Shown one piece after another: positions 23,306-38,315 of a stretch of DNA of 40,326 nucleotides; positions within the stretch are counted from its first letter, which is position 1; the number at the start of each line of letters is the position of its first letter. The translations under genes were made by a program, and so were the position numbers. Under the pieces are notes generated by a model that was given only the letters and a program-made list of their open reading frames with translations, did no database searches and was not told the origin of the DNA. Origin of the DNA: SAR202 cluster bacterium. Its GTDB lineage: Bacteria > Chloroflexota > Dehalococcoidia > Lucifugimonadales > VGZY01. Location: contig VGZY01000022.1 of assembly GCA_016872355.1 (NCBI GenBank), forward strand, positions 1-40,326, written 5' to 3'.

Positions 23306-23362
23306 CACCAGAAATTGGATTTCGGTCGTGCCCTTACGCCGGTTTCAAGATTACGAACTTCG

Positions 23363-23392
23363 TTGAATGGCCGTTTGAAGCTGTTGTACAAT
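23363..23392 (+). promoter_or_regulatory. Candidate leaderless promoter of histidine operon
   Basis: TTGAAT (23363-23368) and TACAAT (23387-23392) are separated by 18 bases. The predicted start, about seven bases after the -10, is the A of the hisZ ATG at 23399, so the mRNA may have no leader. Confidence 0.45.
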
Positions 23393-23398
23393 GGCCGC

Positions 23399-24613
23399 AT
23401 GTCACTTGGGAGCCAGGATTTGCAGAGCAGCAAGGTATACCGACTTGCAGGCATGGCGGATGCCACGGGCAAGCCGTTACAGAAGCTTACGGGCGCCACG
23501 GAGAGGTTCAGTGCGCTCCTCGAACAGGAGGGGTACGCCGCCATCGATACTCCCGTGGTGGAGGAGACCGAGCTATTCGTCCGCAAATCGGGCGGTGAGC
23601 TGACAAGCCGGCTGTACACCTTAGTCGATCCAGGCGGACACAGGGTGAGCCTGCGGCCGGAGTTTACTCCTTCAGTCATTCGCCACTACATACAGGAGCG
23701 CGCCGGATTCAACGGCCCTGTACGCTTCAGGTACAGCGGGCCGGTCTTTCGGTACGAACAGCACGGCGTCGGCGCTTACAGGCAGTTCACTCAGGCGGGC
23801 GCGGAGCTGATCGGCGCCGCGGGAGCGCAGGCGGATGCTGAGGCCCTCTCGATCGCATGGGAAGGCCTGCGGAGTATCGGCGTCACCGGCTTCGGTATCC
23901 GCATCGGCAACATAGGCGTTTTGCAGGAGCTTATCGGCGGGTTCGGCCTCTCGGAAGCCGGCCGCCTCTTCATAATCAGCAATATCCAGGCCATCAAGAC
24001 CGGGCAGACAACTCTCTCAAAACTCACCGAGCAGGCCGCCAGGGTCGGCCTGCTGAGGGCGGGGCTCAAAATCACCGTCGACGATAGCGCGGCCTACATT
24101 GACGGCGATTCGACTCGCGATTTCATCGAAGGGGTCCTTGGCGAGGCGATGTCAAGCCCGACGGGGCGACGCACACCGGAGCAGATCGTCGACAGGCTCC
24201 TCCGGAAAGTACGGGAGGCCAGCCAGCCCGGCAACCTGGAGTCCGCGCTCGCCCTCATCGACCAGCTTGCCCGCATCGACGGCGCGCCGGGCGCGGCGAT
24301 AGACCGCGCTGGCGTCGTACTCAAATCGCACGGCATAGACGCCTCGCCTCTGGACGATCTTTCCGCGCTCGCGAATGATTTGCGCAAGCGAGGCATCGAT
24401 GACGCATGTCTAACTCTCGATTTCGGCCTGGCGCGAGGCATCTCGTACTACACCGGCATGATCTTCGAAGTTGAGCATCCCCAGGCCGCCGCGGGAGCTT
24501 CCCTCGGCGGCGGCGGCCGATACGACGGCCTCGTGCGGGCGCTGGGCGGCGAAGATGTGCCGGCGCTCGGTTTCGCCCTCACAATGGACAATGTTGTTGA
24601 CCTTTTGAAGTAA
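23399..24613 (+). CDS. hisZ: ATP phosphoribosyltransferase regulatory subunit HisZ-like
   Basis: This 404-residue class II synthetase-like protein resembles the catalytic core of HisRS but lacks the C-terminal anticodon-binding domain, ending soon after GGGGRYDGLVRALGGEDVPALGFA. Motif 2 reads RFRYSGPVFRYEQHGVGAYRQFTQAGAELIG, and the later LARGISYYTGMIFE corresponds to a HisRS His-binding motif. Together with operon position (first gene, before hisG) this supports HisZ rather than HisS. HisZ normally pairs with the short-form HisG; here HisG is long, which is odd. The ATG at 23399 has no Shine-Dalgarno but sits at the predicted transcript start. Confidence 0.85.
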   Translation: MSLGSQDLQSSKVYRLAGMADATGKPLQKLTGATERFSALLEQEGYAAIDTPVVEETELFVRKSGGELTSRLYTLVDPGGHRVSLRPEFTPSVIRHYIQERAGFNGPVRFRYSGPVFRYEQHGVGAYRQFTQAGAELIGAAGAQADAEALSIAWEGLRSIGVTGFGIRIGNIGVLQELIGGFGLSEAGRLFIISNIQAIKTGQTTLSKLTEQAARVGLLRAGLKITVDDSAAYIDGDSTRDFIEGVLGEAMSSPTGRRTPEQIVDRLLRKVREASQPGNLESALALIDQLARIDGAPGAAIDRAGVVLKSHGIDASPLDDLSALANDLRKRGIDDACLTLDFGLARGISYYTGMIFEVEHPQAAAGASLGGGGRYDGLVRALGGEDVPALGFALTMDNVVDLLK

Positions 24614-24634
24614 ACCAGACGATCGAGGACTAAC

Positions 24635-25627
24635 GTGCTTCGTCTTGCGATTCCGAGCGACGGCGCCCTCTCCGACCCGGCCCAGGCCTTCCTGAAGGCC
24701 TGCGGCCTCAGCGTCTCGCGCCCCAACCCCCGAAAATACACAGCCGACATCCCATCTGTGCCGGGAGTGGTGGTCCACTTTCAGCGAGGCTCCGACATCG
24801 CCATGAAGGTGGAGGAGGGCAGCGCCGACATGGGGATCGTCGGGCACGACACGTTTGTCGAGAAGGGGCGCGAGGGCGGCGACGCCGAGGTGGTCATCGA
24901 CCAGCTTGGGTTCGGCCATTCCGAGCTCGTTCTGGGCGTTCCAGACTCCTGGGTTGACGTGACTTCCCTGTCCGACCTTGCGGACCTTTCGATGGAGTTC
25001 CGGCAGCAGGGGCGGGACCTGCGAATTGCAACGAAATACCCGAGGGTAGTGGAGCGCTTCCTGCTCAGCAACGGCGTGAATTACATCTCGCTCGTCCCTT
25101 CCAGCGGGACACTCGAGGCTGCGCCGGTCATGGGCTACGCGGACATAATCGCGGACATCTCGTCCACGGGCACGACGATGAGCGCCAACCGCCTGAAGAC
25201 CGTTCACGGCGGGACGATTATGAAGTCCGAGGCATGCCTCATCATCAACAAGCCCCTAATAATCGCCTCCGAAGCGAAGCTCAGCCAGGCAACTGCGATC
25301 GTCGAGCGCATCGAGGCCCACCGGCAGTCGCTGGAGTACTACAGCGTTACAGCGAACATGCGTGGGGAATCCCCCGAGGACGTGGCCCGGTTTGTCCTGG
25401 AGCAGGCATACATTTCCGGCCTGCGCGGCCCCACGATTTCCCGCGTCTTCACCAGGGACGGCGCCGGCATGTATGCCGTGACCGTAATAGTAGAGAAGAA
25501 CAAGCTGCTCCAGGCAGTTGAACAGTTCCGAAAGATCGGCGGGAGCAGCGTGACGGTTTCCCAGCCGCACTACGTGTTCCATTCCGAATGCAAGGCGGCC
25601 AGGCGTCTGCGCGCCAACCGGCAGTAA
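24635..25627 (+). CDS. hisG: ATP phosphoribosyltransferase, long form
   Basis: This 330-residue HisG catalyses the first step of histidine synthesis (ATP plus PRPP). The catalytic domain has RLAIPSDGALSDP, GSADMGIVGHDTFVEKG and IATKYPRVVERF, then the signature region with IIADISSTGTTMSANRL. Residues ~210-315 are the HisG C-terminal regulatory domain (YYSVTANMRGESPEDVARF ... GPTISRVFTRDGAGMYAVTVIVEKNKL), which is the histidine-binding part of long-form enzymes. The GTG at 24635 follows GAGGA by about five bases. It comes after hisZ in the operon. Confidence 0.95.
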   Translation: MLRLAIPSDGALSDPAQAFLKACGLSVSRPNPRKYTADIPSVPGVVVHFQRGSDIAMKVEEGSADMGIVGHDTFVEKGREGGDAEVVIDQLGFGHSELVLGVPDSWVDVTSLSDLADLSMEFRQQGRDLRIATKYPRVVERFLLSNGVNYISLVPSSGTLEAAPVMGYADIIADISSTGTTMSANRLKTVHGGTIMKSEACLIINKPLIIASEAKLSQATAIVERIEAHRQSLEYYSVTANMRGESPEDVARFVLEQAYISGLRGPTISRVFTRDGAGMYAVTVIVEKNKLLQAVEQFRKIGGSSVTVSQPHYVFHSECKAARRLRANRQ

Positions 25628-25656: not shown

Positions 25657-25980
25657 ATGGTTGACGTTAATGAGCTGGGAGGCGCGCTCTTCGACGCGCT
25701 TGCGCAGCCCGACCCGGTTGTTCGTCAAGCTGCGGTAGACGCGTGGTTGAAGGACGCCGAAGGGTTTTTTGAGCCCGAAGTCATCAAGCAGATCGCCGAG
25801 GCAATGCCCCAGCTCGTGACCGTGATGGACACGCCGCAGGGTGAACAGATGTCCGGCATGCTGCGAAGCGGCCTGATGACTTTGCTGCGGGCCGGCGACG
25901 CGAAGTTTACAATCAAGGTAAAGAGTCCCGGCAGCGGGCCCGAAGAAGGGGCTGCTCCGCAACAGGGGTCACAGGGTTGA
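25657..25980 (+). CDS. Unknown small protein in histidine operon
   Basis: This 107-residue protein starts MVDVNELGGALFDALAQPDPVVRQAAVDAWL and contains AAVDAWLKDAEGFFEPEVIKQIAEAMPQLV, a helical, repeat-like composition reminiscent of short HEAT-type helices. The last 20 residues are Gly/Pro/Gln-rich. I do not recognise the family. AAGGGGG lies ahead of the ATG, and the TGA overlaps the hisD start codon (TTGA), so it is translated with hisG and hisD. Placement between them suggests a histidine-pathway role, but nothing in the sequence defines it. Confidence 0.75.
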   Translation: MVDVNELGGALFDALAQPDPVVRQAAVDAWLKDAEGFFEPEVIKQIAEAMPQLVTVMDTPQGEQMSGMLRSGLMTLLRAGDAKFTIKVKSPGSGPEEGAAPQQGSQG

Positions 25981-27305
25981 AAATAGTTCGCGGGCTCGAC
26001 AGGGCGAAGCAAGCGCTATGCGCCGGCCGGGGGCTAAACCTGGACGCCGTGCCGCCGCACGTTTTGAAGCGAACGCAAGAAGTTTTCGGGGCCAGGCTCA
26101 CGCCCATGCAGGCCGTGCAGGCGATCATCGACCGCGTACGCAAGGACGGGGACGCGGCGCTCCGCGATCTGTCCATCAAGTTTGACGGCGCGGCGCTCGA
26201 CGCCATCGAAGTGCCCCGATCAGCGATCGACCGCGCTTACGATGAGGTGCCGGGAGAGCTCGTGGACGCGCTTGACCTTTCGGCGAGCCGCGTCCGCATG
26301 TTCCACGAAGCCAGCATGCCAAAGGGCTGGACCGACTTCAAACAGGGCTACGGCGAAGTCTTTAACCCCGTTGAAAGCGTTGGCGCCTATATCCCGGGCG
26401 GAAGTGCGCCTCTCATGTCTACCGTTCTGATGTCTGCCATACCCGCAAGGGTAGCGGGCGTCCGCGAGGTATTCGTTGCCACCCCCGCCGGCAAGGGCAA
26501 GCCCGTTCATCCGGCCGTGCTGGTGGCGGCGGACATTGCGCGGGTGGACAGGGTCTTCCAGGTGGGCGGCGCCCAGGCGATAGCCGCCCTCGCGTACGGG
26601 ACGGAGAGCATCCCAAAGGTGGACATGGTCTGCGGGCCGGGCAACATCTTCGTCACCATCGCCAAGAAGCTCGTTTACGGCGACGTCGGCATCGACGGGC
26701 TGTACGGGCCGACCGAGACGGTTGTCATCGGGGATGAAACGGCCAACATAACGTTTTGCGCCGCTGATCTGATTGCCCAGGCGGAGCACGACGTAATGGC
26801 GCGCCCGGTCTTCATCACCACCTCGCTGGAGGTGGCGGAGGCCGTCAGCCGCGAGATCGACATTCGACTGGCGCGCCTGGATCGAGCAGACACCATACGC
26901 GCATCCGTTGACCACCAGGGCGTTATTGCCGTGGTGGAAACGCTGGAGCACGCGTTCGACCTGGCCAACGCCTTCGCGCCGGAGCACATGTGCCTGGCCA
27001 TACGCGACCCATGGACGCATGTGGGGAGGGTGAAGCACGCCGGCGCTATCTTCCTCGGCGAATTCTCGCACGAGGTCCTGGGCGACTATGTCGCCGGTCC
27101 AAGCCACGTAATGCCCACGGCGGGAACCGCCAGGTTCGGGTCCGGACTGAACGTGCGCTCGTTCCTCAAAGTAAGCCCGGTGATCGGCCTCGACGAGGCG
27201 ACTGCCATGGTCGTGGCAAGGGCGGCCTCCGTTATCGGCCGCGCGGAGGGGCTCACAGCGCACGCCGAAGCGGCGGAAATCCGCGAAGAGTTTGGGAAGG
27301 GCTAA
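25977..27305 (+). CDS. hisD: Histidinol dehydrogenase
   Basis: This 442-residue enzyme oxidises L-histidinol to L-histidine in two NAD-dependent steps. The catalytic and zinc residues are present: AQAEHDVMARP (Gln and His), FAPEHMCLA (Glu-His acid/base pair) and GPSHVMPTAGTARFGSGLNV; the C-terminal LTAHAEAAEIR supplies another histidine. GAYIPGGSAPL and VCGPGNIFVTIAKK are also typical. The TTG at 25977 overlaps the previous gene's TGA; AGGGG lies about eight bases before it. It is followed 10 bases later by hisC. Confidence 0.95.
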   Translation: MKIVRGLDRAKQALCAGRGLNLDAVPPHVLKRTQEVFGARLTPMQAVQAIIDRVRKDGDAALRDLSIKFDGAALDAIEVPRSAIDRAYDEVPGELVDALDLSASRVRMFHEASMPKGWTDFKQGYGEVFNPVESVGAYIPGGSAPLMSTVLMSAIPARVAGVREVFVATPAGKGKPVHPAVLVAADIARVDRVFQVGGAQAIAALAYGTESIPKVDMVCGPGNIFVTIAKKLVYGDVGIDGLYGPTETVVIGDETANITFCAADLIAQAEHDVMARPVFITTSLEVAEAVSREIDIRLARLDRADTIRASVDHQGVIAVVETLEHAFDLANAFAPEHMCLAIRDPWTHVGRVKHAGAIFLGEFSHEVLGDYVAGPSHVMPTAGTARFGSGLNVRSFLKVSPVIGLDEATAMVVARAASVIGRAEGLTAHAEAAEIREEFGKG

Positions 27306-27315
27306 AGGTGTCACT

Positions 27316-28407
27316 TTGACGGCCAGAATTAATGCGAGCGACTTCATTCGCCCTCACATCCGCAAGGTGGAGGGTTACAAGGCCGTCGACCCAATCGAGG
27401 AACAGGCGGCGAGAATGGGCATCCCGGAGGCGCAGGTCATCCGCCTGAACGCCAACGAGAACCCTTACGGCTGCTCTCCGAAAGTGGCGGCCGCTGTGGC
27501 CGCTGTGCCGTACAACATCTACCCTGACCCTGAGCAGCGGCGCACGCGAAGGGAGCTTGGCAAGTTCCTGGGCGTAAGCCCGGACAGCGTTATCGCGGGA
27601 GCGGGGAGCGACGAGATCATCGACCTGCTGTTCCGGCTGGTGCTCGCCCCCGGCGACAACATTATCGACTGCGACCCCACCTTCGGAATGTACAGCTTCG
27701 ATGCGGGCGTCAACGAGGTGCAGGTCAAGACCGTGCAGCGCGACGAGCTATTCGACGTGGACGTGGCGGCGGTCAAGCGCGCAATCGACAGCCGGTCGAA
27801 GGCCATCTTTCTGACCTCGCCCAACAATCCCACCGGCAACGTCCTCTCCGAGAAGACGCTGCGCGAGATACTGGACACGGGGCTGCTTGTGGCCGTGGAT
27901 GAGGCCTACTACGACTTTTGCGGCAAGAGCTTCATTCATATGGTGAGTGAGACGCCGAACCTGGTCGTGCTGCGCACGATGAGCAAGTGGGCCGGGCTCG
28001 CAGGACTGCGGGTAGGATACGGCGTGATGCACCCGGATTTCGTTTCGCGCATCATTCAGATCAAACAGCCGTACAACATCAGCACCGCGGCAGAAGCAGG
28101 ACTGTATGCGTCCATTGAGGACGCGGCGTACCTGGACAGGAACCGCGACCTGCTGATTGTTGAGCGGGAGCGCCTTTTCGCGCTCCTGAAGTCTGTTCCG
28201 GGGATCACGCCGCTCCCGTCCGGGGGCAACTTCATCCTGTTCGAAGTTCCGCAAGGTCGTTCGCAACACATCTTCGATAGCCTTGCGAAGCGCGGCATCT
28301 TCCTCCGAAGATATGGCTCAAAGCGGCTGGTGAACTACATCCGGACGAGCGTGGGGAAGCCGGAGCACACGGACGCGCTCATTTCAGCCCTCAAAGAGCT
28401 TGTTTAA
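27316..28407 (+). CDS. hisC: Histidinol-phosphate aminotransferase
   Basis: This 363-residue PLP enzyme makes histidinol phosphate from imidazole acetol phosphate. It contains NANENPYGCSP, AGAGSDEIIDLL, TSPNNPTGN, VDEAYYDF and the PLP-lysine motif TMSKWAGLAGLRVGYG. The later KQPYNISTAAE and RRYGSKRLVNYIRTSVG (phosphate-binding Arg) complete the family pattern. A TTG at 27316 is chosen as start because AAAGGTG (27304-27310) lies five bases before it; a TTG at 27292 would overlap hisD and has no ribosome site. Confidence 0.93.
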   Translation: MTARINASDFIRPHIRKVEGYKAVDPIEEQAARMGIPEAQVIRLNANENPYGCSPKVAAAVAAVPYNIYPDPEQRRTRRELGKFLGVSPDSVIAGAGSDEIIDLLFRLVLAPGDNIIDCDPTFGMYSFDAGVNEVQVKTVQRDELFDVDVAAVKRAIDSRSKAIFLTSPNNPTGNVLSEKTLREILDTGLLVAVDEAYYDFCGKSFIHMVSETPNLVVLRTMSKWAGLAGLRVGYGVMHPDFVSRIIQIKQPYNISTAAEAGLYASIEDAAYLDRNRDLLIVERERLFALLKSVPGITPLPSGGNFILFEVPQGRSQHIFDSLAKRGIFLRRYGSKRLVNYIRTSVGKPEHTDALISALKELV

Positions 28408-28434: not shown

Positions 28435-29028
28435 ATGCCACGAACAGCGAAGCTGAACAGGGAAACGGGCGAGACTAAGATCGCGATCGAGCTCAACATA
28501 GATGGGGCGGGGAAGTACAGGATCGACACCGGAAACGGGATGTTCGACCACCTCCTCTCCGCCTTCTCCCGCCACGGCCTGTTCGACCTTGAAATCACCG
28601 CCCGGGGCGACACGCACGTTGGCTGGCACCACCTGGTTGAGGACACCGGCATACTGCTGGGCCGCGCAATCAAGCAGGCGGTCGGCGATGCCCGGGGCAT
28701 CACACGCATGGCCCACGCTTACGCGCCCCTCGATGAGACGCTGGCGTTCGTGGCCGTTGACTTCGGCGGGCGCGGATACGCTGTGATCGACGCGGAAATA
28801 GGTGACAGCGACCTGGGCGGGCTGGCCGGCAGCCTTATCAACCACTACCTGGAATCGATGGCGCGTGAGGGGGCCTTCAACCTGCATGTCCGCATAGAGT
28901 CCGGCGCGAACAACCACCACAAGGCGGAGGCCACGTTCAAGGCGCTGGCGCGGGCCACGCGCGCCGCTCTGTCTCTGGATGAGCGCCTCGGTGGGCAGGT
29001 GCCCAGCACCAAGGGCACGATCGGGTAG
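28435..29028 (+). CDS. hisB: Imidazoleglycerol-phosphate dehydratase
   Basis: This 197-residue manganese enzyme performs the sixth step of histidine synthesis. FDHLLSAFSRHGLFDLEI, HVGWHHLVEDTGILLG and SGANNHHKAEATFKALARA provide the conserved metal-binding histidines in two repeats. This is the monofunctional type, without a phosphatase domain. GGAAGG lies about nine bases before the ATG. It is the last recognised his gene here; hisA, hisF, hisH and hisI are not in the window. Confidence 0.96.
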   Translation: MPRTAKLNRETGETKIAIELNIDGAGKYRIDTGNGMFDHLLSAFSRHGLFDLEITARGDTHVGWHHLVEDTGILLGRAIKQAVGDARGITRMAHAYAPLDETLAFVAVDFGGRGYAVIDAEIGDSDLGGLAGSLINHYLESMAREGAFNLHVRIESGANNHHKAEATFKALARATRAALSLDERLGGQVPSTKGTIG

Positions 29029-37937: not shown

Positions 37938-38315
37938 TATTGCAGAGACAGGCAGCGGGTTTGAGGCCTGACGGGCCGGAATAGCTTAGCCCAGGGTGGA
38001 GTGCCGAAGGCTCCGCGAAGGCACGCAGCCCTGGGAATTCGATATAGTATTTCACCCAGCCCTGAAGGGGCGAAATACTCTCTGGTCAGACAAGAGATTA
38101 TCTCGGCTCTTCAGGCCTTAAGAAATTCTTCGGTCCGGGTACCCAGGGCTACGCCCACTCCGCAGAGCCTTCGTGGGCTCCACCCTGGGCTTAGATAGCC
38201 CGCGCCTTCAGCGCTCCCATCCGCTCCCCCATGGGCGAGCAGTGTAATATTGCGATGGCTGACCCAAAGAATCAAATGCCAAGGGCGGTCCTGGCAAAGG
38301 GAAAGGCTGAGACCG
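37938..38315. other. 378-bp gap holding a MITE-like repeat
   Basis: No coding region is supported. Positions 37984-38195 hold a long imperfect inverted repeat (see its own entry); the flanks (37938-37983 and 38196-38315) have no recognised feature other than the leader of the kinase gene. Confidence 0.8.
37984..38195. repeat. MITE-like composite inverted repeat
   Basis: The left arm AGCCCAGGGTGGAG (37988-38001) and right arm CTCCACCCTGGGCT (38178-38191) are exact reverse complements. Matching continues inward, imperfectly, to GCCCTGGG near 38028-38035 and CCCAGGGC near 38142-38149, so each arm is about 50 bp. Between them is AGCCCTGAAGGGGCGAAATA (38058-38077), another common bacterial intergenic repeat type. 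No coding capacity is seen. Confidence 0.8.

Follow-up and report, generated by a model that had tools for sequence, protein, structure and literature searches.

ATP phosphoribosyltransferase (ATP-PRT) is a model of allostery for which two alternatives are described, a long form that regulates itself and a short form regulated by HisZ. In the long form of plants and other organisms, the C-terminal domain, on binding histidine, locks the hexamer in an inhibited state, and HisZ usually complements short HisG proteins that lack this C-terminal histidine-binding domain. The window analyzed here, the whole stretch of 40,326 nucleotides of contig VGZY01000022.1 from a SAR202 cluster bacterium, raises the question of why one Chloroflexota bacterium encodes both supposedly alternative feedback regulators for its first histidine-synthesis enzyme. 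A first-pass annotation, which placed a HisZ-like gene first in the operon beside a long-form HisG, had offered two readings, namely, that the HisZ relative has another role or that both feedback systems operate on one enzyme.

The hisZ-like gene lies 21 bp upstream of hisG, and the gene order in the window is hisZ-like, hisG, a 107-aa open reading frame (ORF), hisD, the hisC-type aminotransferase gene, and hisB (Table 1). An alternative TTG start for hisZ at 23315 would give a protein of 432 aa; the N termini of relatives favor the ATG listed. A sigma-70-like promoter match (2 matches against 0.7 expected) ends 6 nt 5′ of this ATG, and the hisZ mRNA would be leaderless or near-leaderless if this promoter were used. 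No riboswitch, T-box, or RNA leader was found within the window. At 37964 to 38035 on the minus strand, we recorded an Acido-Lenti-1 RNA match with a score of 38.3 against the gathering score of 37. The 107-aa ORF had no family match, and no relatives of it were found in the related loci compared; it may be an orphan. In many loci, hisG and hisD seemed to be separated by a gap of ~750 bp; this proved to be an artefact of partial BLAST segments, and hisD lay directly 3′ of hisG in the locus checked.

Table 1. Features of the hisZ-hisG locus in the window
Feature	Coordinates	Strand	Details
Sigma-70-like promoter match	23363..23392	+	TTGAAT-18-TACAAT; consensus match only
hisZ-like gene	23399..24613	+	404 aa, ATG 23399; HisRS-like core, no anticodon-binding domain
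hisG, long-form (plant-type) ATP phosphoribosyltransferase	24635..25627	+	330 aa, GTG start
HisG_C domain	25319..25582	+	residues ~229-316; contains N241, G262, G265-P266-T267, R299
107-aa ORF between hisG and hisD	25657..25980	+	ORF call
hisD (histidinol dehydrogenase)	25977..27305	+	profile match; operon neighbor
Aminotransferase, probable hisC	27292..28407	+	operon neighbor
hisB (IGP dehydratase)	28435..29028	+	operon neighbor

The HisG protein scored 133 bits against Pfam HisG (cut-off, 25.5) and 174 against NCBIfam TIGR00070 (cut-off, 75.75), and it exceeded the cut-offs of both C-terminal models, Pfam HisG_C (37 bits; cut-off, 23.5) and NCBIfam TIGR03455 (46.9; cut-off, 40.05). Its AlphaFold model (mean pLDDT, 87.8) aligned over residues 1 to 330 with the Medicago long-form ATP-PRT (6czm/6czl; Z 33, ~325 residues) in matches comprising tense and relaxed forms, and the next structural matches were other histidine-inhibited HisG_L structures. 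Medicago ATP-PRT was also the nearest solved relative by sequence (235 bits; next, 107). The window HisG is confirmed as a long form by the domain cut-offs together with the full-length predicted fold.

We next considered the residues of the C-domain itself. The histidine contacts of Mycobacterium HisG are equivalent to Corynebacterium residues 215, L231, T235, M250, and A270 (PMC3896937), and the Mycobacterium C-domain sequence was checked against the PDB. The Mycobacterium contacts L234 and T238 (L231 and T235 in Corynebacterium) align with L263 and T267 of the window HisG, and both are kept; the other contacts map with less certainty, and the equivalents of D218 and A273, R243 and S305, are uncertain or variable. 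Across 112 long HisG proteins from HisZ-positive genomes, N241, G262, G265, P266, and R299 were near-invariant, and T267 was present in 105. The C-domain is thus not degenerate, so that this ground for refuting the first-pass reading fails, and its functional loss in the window HisG was ruled out by the Pfam and NCBIfam cut-offs, the predicted fold, and the conserved residues. In HisZ-positive genomes with an intact C-domain, C-domain identity tracked catalytic-domain identity (0.62 at 65 to 70%), whereas degenerate copies, at ~0.20, fell far below these. At equal catalytic identity (55 to 60%), C-domain identity was 0.44 in HisZ-positive pairs versus 0.52 in HisZ-negative pairs, which are few and not independent; since the value is lower in the HisZ-positive pairs, the role of the C-domain may be partly relaxed. 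Entropy was 1.75 bits in the C-domain versus 1.41 bits in the catalytic domain. Judged by these comparisons, we regard the HisG C-domain as being under selection that is perhaps slightly relaxed.

The identity of the upstream gene was less easily read from profile scores. The HisZ-like protein reached 232.5 bits against TIGR00443 (hisZ), below the cut-off of 271.65, and 229 bits against TIGR00442 (hisS), likewise under its cut-off; TIGR00443 was still the top-scoring family. Because the two scores are nearly equal and both fall short, scores alone do not settle HisZ versus HisS, but the presence of a second gene for HisS, the trees, and the residue pattern described below do; we use the names HisZ-like and HisZ clade because this divergent clade lies under the TIGR00443 cut-off. 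A true hisS is present elsewhere in the genome, on contig C74 (483 bits for hisS, 180 bits for hisZ). In trees of 65 sequences, built on core columns with both paralogues included, Chloroflexota HisZ clustered with alphaproteobacterial HisZ (93/83) and away from the HisS proteins that the same genomes encode. The window-type HisZ was separate from the other HisZ type of Chloroflexota; the HisZ clade proper had moderate support (87/51). The gene therefore did not group with true HisS, and its earlier assignment as a HisZ relative stood. The nearest structure to the HisZ model was the solved HisZ 3od1 (Z 34.5), but because HisRS chains followed within about 2 Z units, the structure search is not decisive alone.

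We then turn to the residue pattern of HisZ, given in E. coli HisRS numbering, which, together with the HisRS residue roles, we take to apply here. The histidine-pocket residues E83, Q127, E131, Y263, Y264, R287, and Y288 were kept in 109 to 118 of 118 HisZ proteins. D262 was replaced in nearly all of the 118 and the motif-2 loop Arg121 was mostly lost, and neither is present in the window protein; at the position of motif-3 Arg311, the window HisZ has Asn and the others vary, and the catalytic Arg259 is kept in the window HisZ. Such a pattern is the signature of a putative histidine sensor that has lost the ability to form histidyl-adenylate. The window HisZ has a region of ~120 aa between motifs 2 and 3 (residues ~200 to 318) and lacks the C-terminal tail of at least 45 aa, resembling the HisRS anticodon domain, that is found in 46 of 78 related HisZ proteins. 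HisZ and HisG distances were correlated over 10 genomes (r = 0.84), with a partial correlation of 0.70 when controlling for HisS.

When named genomes were scanned with the HisG alignment, 80 loci were recovered, almost all of them under the titles Chloroflexi, Dehalococcoidia, or SAR202, and HisZ lay immediately upstream of HisG in all 78 loci whose contig reached far enough. Because every assessable locus repeats the hisZ-hisG order, the arrangement is not due to chance or to error in metagenome assembly. Together with the HisG_C cut-offs and the plant-like fold, this bears out the arrangement originally described for the locus. At the order level, HisG was found in 141 of 147 genomes and HisZ with HisG in 134. 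In the phylum sample, 27 of 101 genomes carry the window-type HisZ clade; 23 of these have a HisG_C match (22 above the Pfam cut-off and 1 just below), and the remaining 4 have a full-length HisG whose C-domain motif is lost. In family f44 of the phylum, hisZ and hisG are found in one genome on different contigs, and plant-type long HisG without HisZ is present in the phylum too. The pairing of HisZ with long HisG is the rule in the clade and has been conserved in much of the phylum. An assumption made in a published survey is that genomes with hisGL are without hisZ, and the survey states that the distribution had not previously been analyzed (PMC8305728); the window genome and its relatives contradict this assumption. 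The parts are individually known, and their stable combination is undescribed in the open-access papers searched.

The relatives also include genomes in which one or the other component is missing. In 19 of the 147 order genomes, all of them HisZ-positive, HisG ends near residue 220 to 250 and has no C-domain; the sequence of one of these contains a run of N, and another is divided between contigs. On the catalytic-domain tree of HisG, which is unrooted, at least seven (seven to eight) separate C-domain losses with HisZ retained are required. In one such relative, G002, HisG stops at residue ~235, hisD begins about 75 bp later, and a C-domain remnant was absent from all frames, as in the other short forms read. 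At least five further order genomes, all HisZ-positive, have a degenerate C-domain. Conversely, HisZ is missing in five genomes (G013, G017, G204, G216, and G224), for each of which a TIGR00443 search returned a single HisS-level match and no HisZ; all five retain a C-domain with the GPT motif, and the HisZ losses amount to about three events. A free-standing HisG_C ORF in G141 was a contig-end fragment.

In the phylum sample, each of the 20 genomes tested that lack an intact HisG C-domain has a HisZ; in most of them, a canonical HisZ adjoins a short HisG, and five have a tandem HisG. All 30 long-HisG genomes without the window-type HisZ clade keep the C-domain, and none of them has another HisZ above the cut-off. 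No genome in this sample had a HisG lacking both the C-domain and HisZ. The corresponding test for the absence of genomes without both sensors was not significant within the order (Fisher p = 0.59), and the phylum two-by-two table gave p = 2e-6, a value that ignores shared ancestry.

Taken together, these data point to a single enzyme: an intact C-domain, with co-variation of HisZ and HisG beyond that of HisS, makes one ATP-PRT under two controls the simplest account. We propose that hisZ and hisG would encode one ATP-PRT with two histidine sensors, in which HisZ, as a catalytically dead HisRS paralogue, would bind the catalytic core of HisG and activate it, and the histidine site of HisZ would allow inhibition of HisG. 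The C-terminal domain of HisG would stay as the second sensor. The two controls would overlap enough that lineages could drop either one; at least seven have dropped the C-domain, leaving HisZ with a short HisG, and about three have dropped HisZ. On the strength of sequence comparisons, we lean toward this picture of one ATP-PRT with two overlapping histidine controls. Synteny, co-evolution, and the pattern of losses indicate that HisZ most likely binds and regulates the window HisG, and the closeness of the window pair to that of G002 (HisZ, 44 to 45% identity; HisG catalytic domain, 61%) argues likewise that the window HisZ would act on HisG. Both pockets, we infer, bind histidine, and both would act in one complex. 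In characterized systems, HisG_S has little activity on its own (PMC10998830), and the short-HisG relatives therefore suggest that HisZ of the window clade may be a sufficient partner for a HisG that lacks a built-in regulatory domain. The second control could have an added role, for example, activation by HisZ combined with inhibition through either domain.

Other divisions of labor between the two proteins can be set against these data. An account in which HisZ both regulates the enzyme and senses histidine, and the HisG C-domain serves only for folding or oligomerization and has lost histidine sensing, would fit the many losses and degenerations of that domain in HisZ-positive lineages, its greater entropy and slightly reduced identity, and the variability of S305 and R243. 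We nevertheless consider this account doubtful, as the GL-GPT motif with its histidine-contact Leu and Thr is near-invariant among the 112 HisG proteins and the five HisZ-less order relatives all retain the domain with its GPT motif. In the opposite arrangement, HisG_L would do all of the feedback, as in plants, and HisZ would merely activate or stabilize it without sensing histidine. The window HisG is indeed a long form of the plant HISN1 type, and long-form enzymes are homohexamers that need no partner (PMC10795190), but with the histidine pocket kept in essentially every HisZ and 19 relatives that have HisZ and no C-domain, this arrangement is improbable.

Near-total synteny and co-variation with HisG make it very improbable that the HisZ relative has some other role, for instance in sensing histidine or tRNA-His or as a moonlighting protein, and merely shares the operon, and HisZ is found beside every tested HisG without an intact C-domain. 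The anticodon-domain-like tails of many related HisZ proteins would suit such a role, but the window copy is tail-less, and the Geobacteraceae HisZ proteins, which have anticodon-like domains, also pair with short HisG (PMC2923632). Hardly credible at all is a HisRS duplicate that still charges tRNA: the nearly equal TIGR00442 and TIGR00443 scores and the retained Arg259 would allow it, but the anticodon domain is absent, the motif-3 Arg is replaced by Asn, D262 and R121 are lost, a full hisS is encoded elsewhere, and the trees place the protein in a separate clade. Of the two original readings, joint action of both feedback systems on one enzyme thus appears favored over an unrelated role for HisZ, because close relatives deleted the C-domain and kept HisZ beside a short HisG.

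The proposed two-sensor enzyme differs from each of the described systems. The short-form ATP-PRT of Lactococcus, Psychrobacter, and Acinetobacter, a hetero-octamer of HisG_S and HisZ, likewise has, next to hisG, a gene for a dead HisRS paralogue whose histidine pocket is intact, but the window HisG retains the C-terminal regulatory domain by which long forms are defined; the partner HisG is long in the window, and relatives including G002 and f70 have a short one. The plant HISN1/Medicago ATP-PRT (6czl, 6czm) has the C-domain motifs ANMRG, GLxGPT, and IGGS in common with the window HisG and is described as a long form without HisZ, whereas in the window a HisZ gene adjoins. Canonical HisG_L of E. 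coli, Mycobacterium, and Campylobacter has the same three domains, but it is more distant in sequence and has no HisZ partner. Alphaproteobacterial HisZ is on the window's side of the tree; the C-domain of its HisG partner is degenerate or lost, unlike that of the window.

It is an even call, in our estimation, whether HisG_L with HisZ, two sensors in one complex, constitutes a third ATP-PRT architecture that was ancestral in a large lineage, from which deletion of the C-domain repeatedly produced HisG_S with HisZ and loss of HisZ, a rarer event, left HisG_L alone. The precedence of the combined form is an order of events that we infer from an unrooted tree. The relatives that lost one or the other sensor make the origin of short forms testable in natural variants, and the mode of ATP-PRT control should not be inferred from gene presence alone.

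Several further loci depart from these arrangements. In Methylobacterium (L168, 3449-4607), HisG has an adjacent HisZ and keeps its C-terminal region with the GPT motif lost, and HisG is short in Sinorhizobium and Shinella, so that C-domain decay is found outside Chloroflexota too. A plasmid-borne HisZ of Azospirillum (L170, 2465-3619) is annotated beside adenylosuccinate synthase, with no hisG among the neighbors shown. The HisZ-positive loci L153-L156 and L165, from two distant families, have full-length HisG C-domains without the conserved motif. At G024:C1:824568-825887 and at homologous positions in the class-mate families f22-f25, two HisG catalytic domains are fused in tandem in one ORF of ~470 aa; these loci have no HisG_C, and a divergent HisZ adjoins. 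Three genomes of family f73 (G157, G171, and G180) carry a second, distant HisG that scored 62 to 80 bits, compared to about 485 bits for the main copy.
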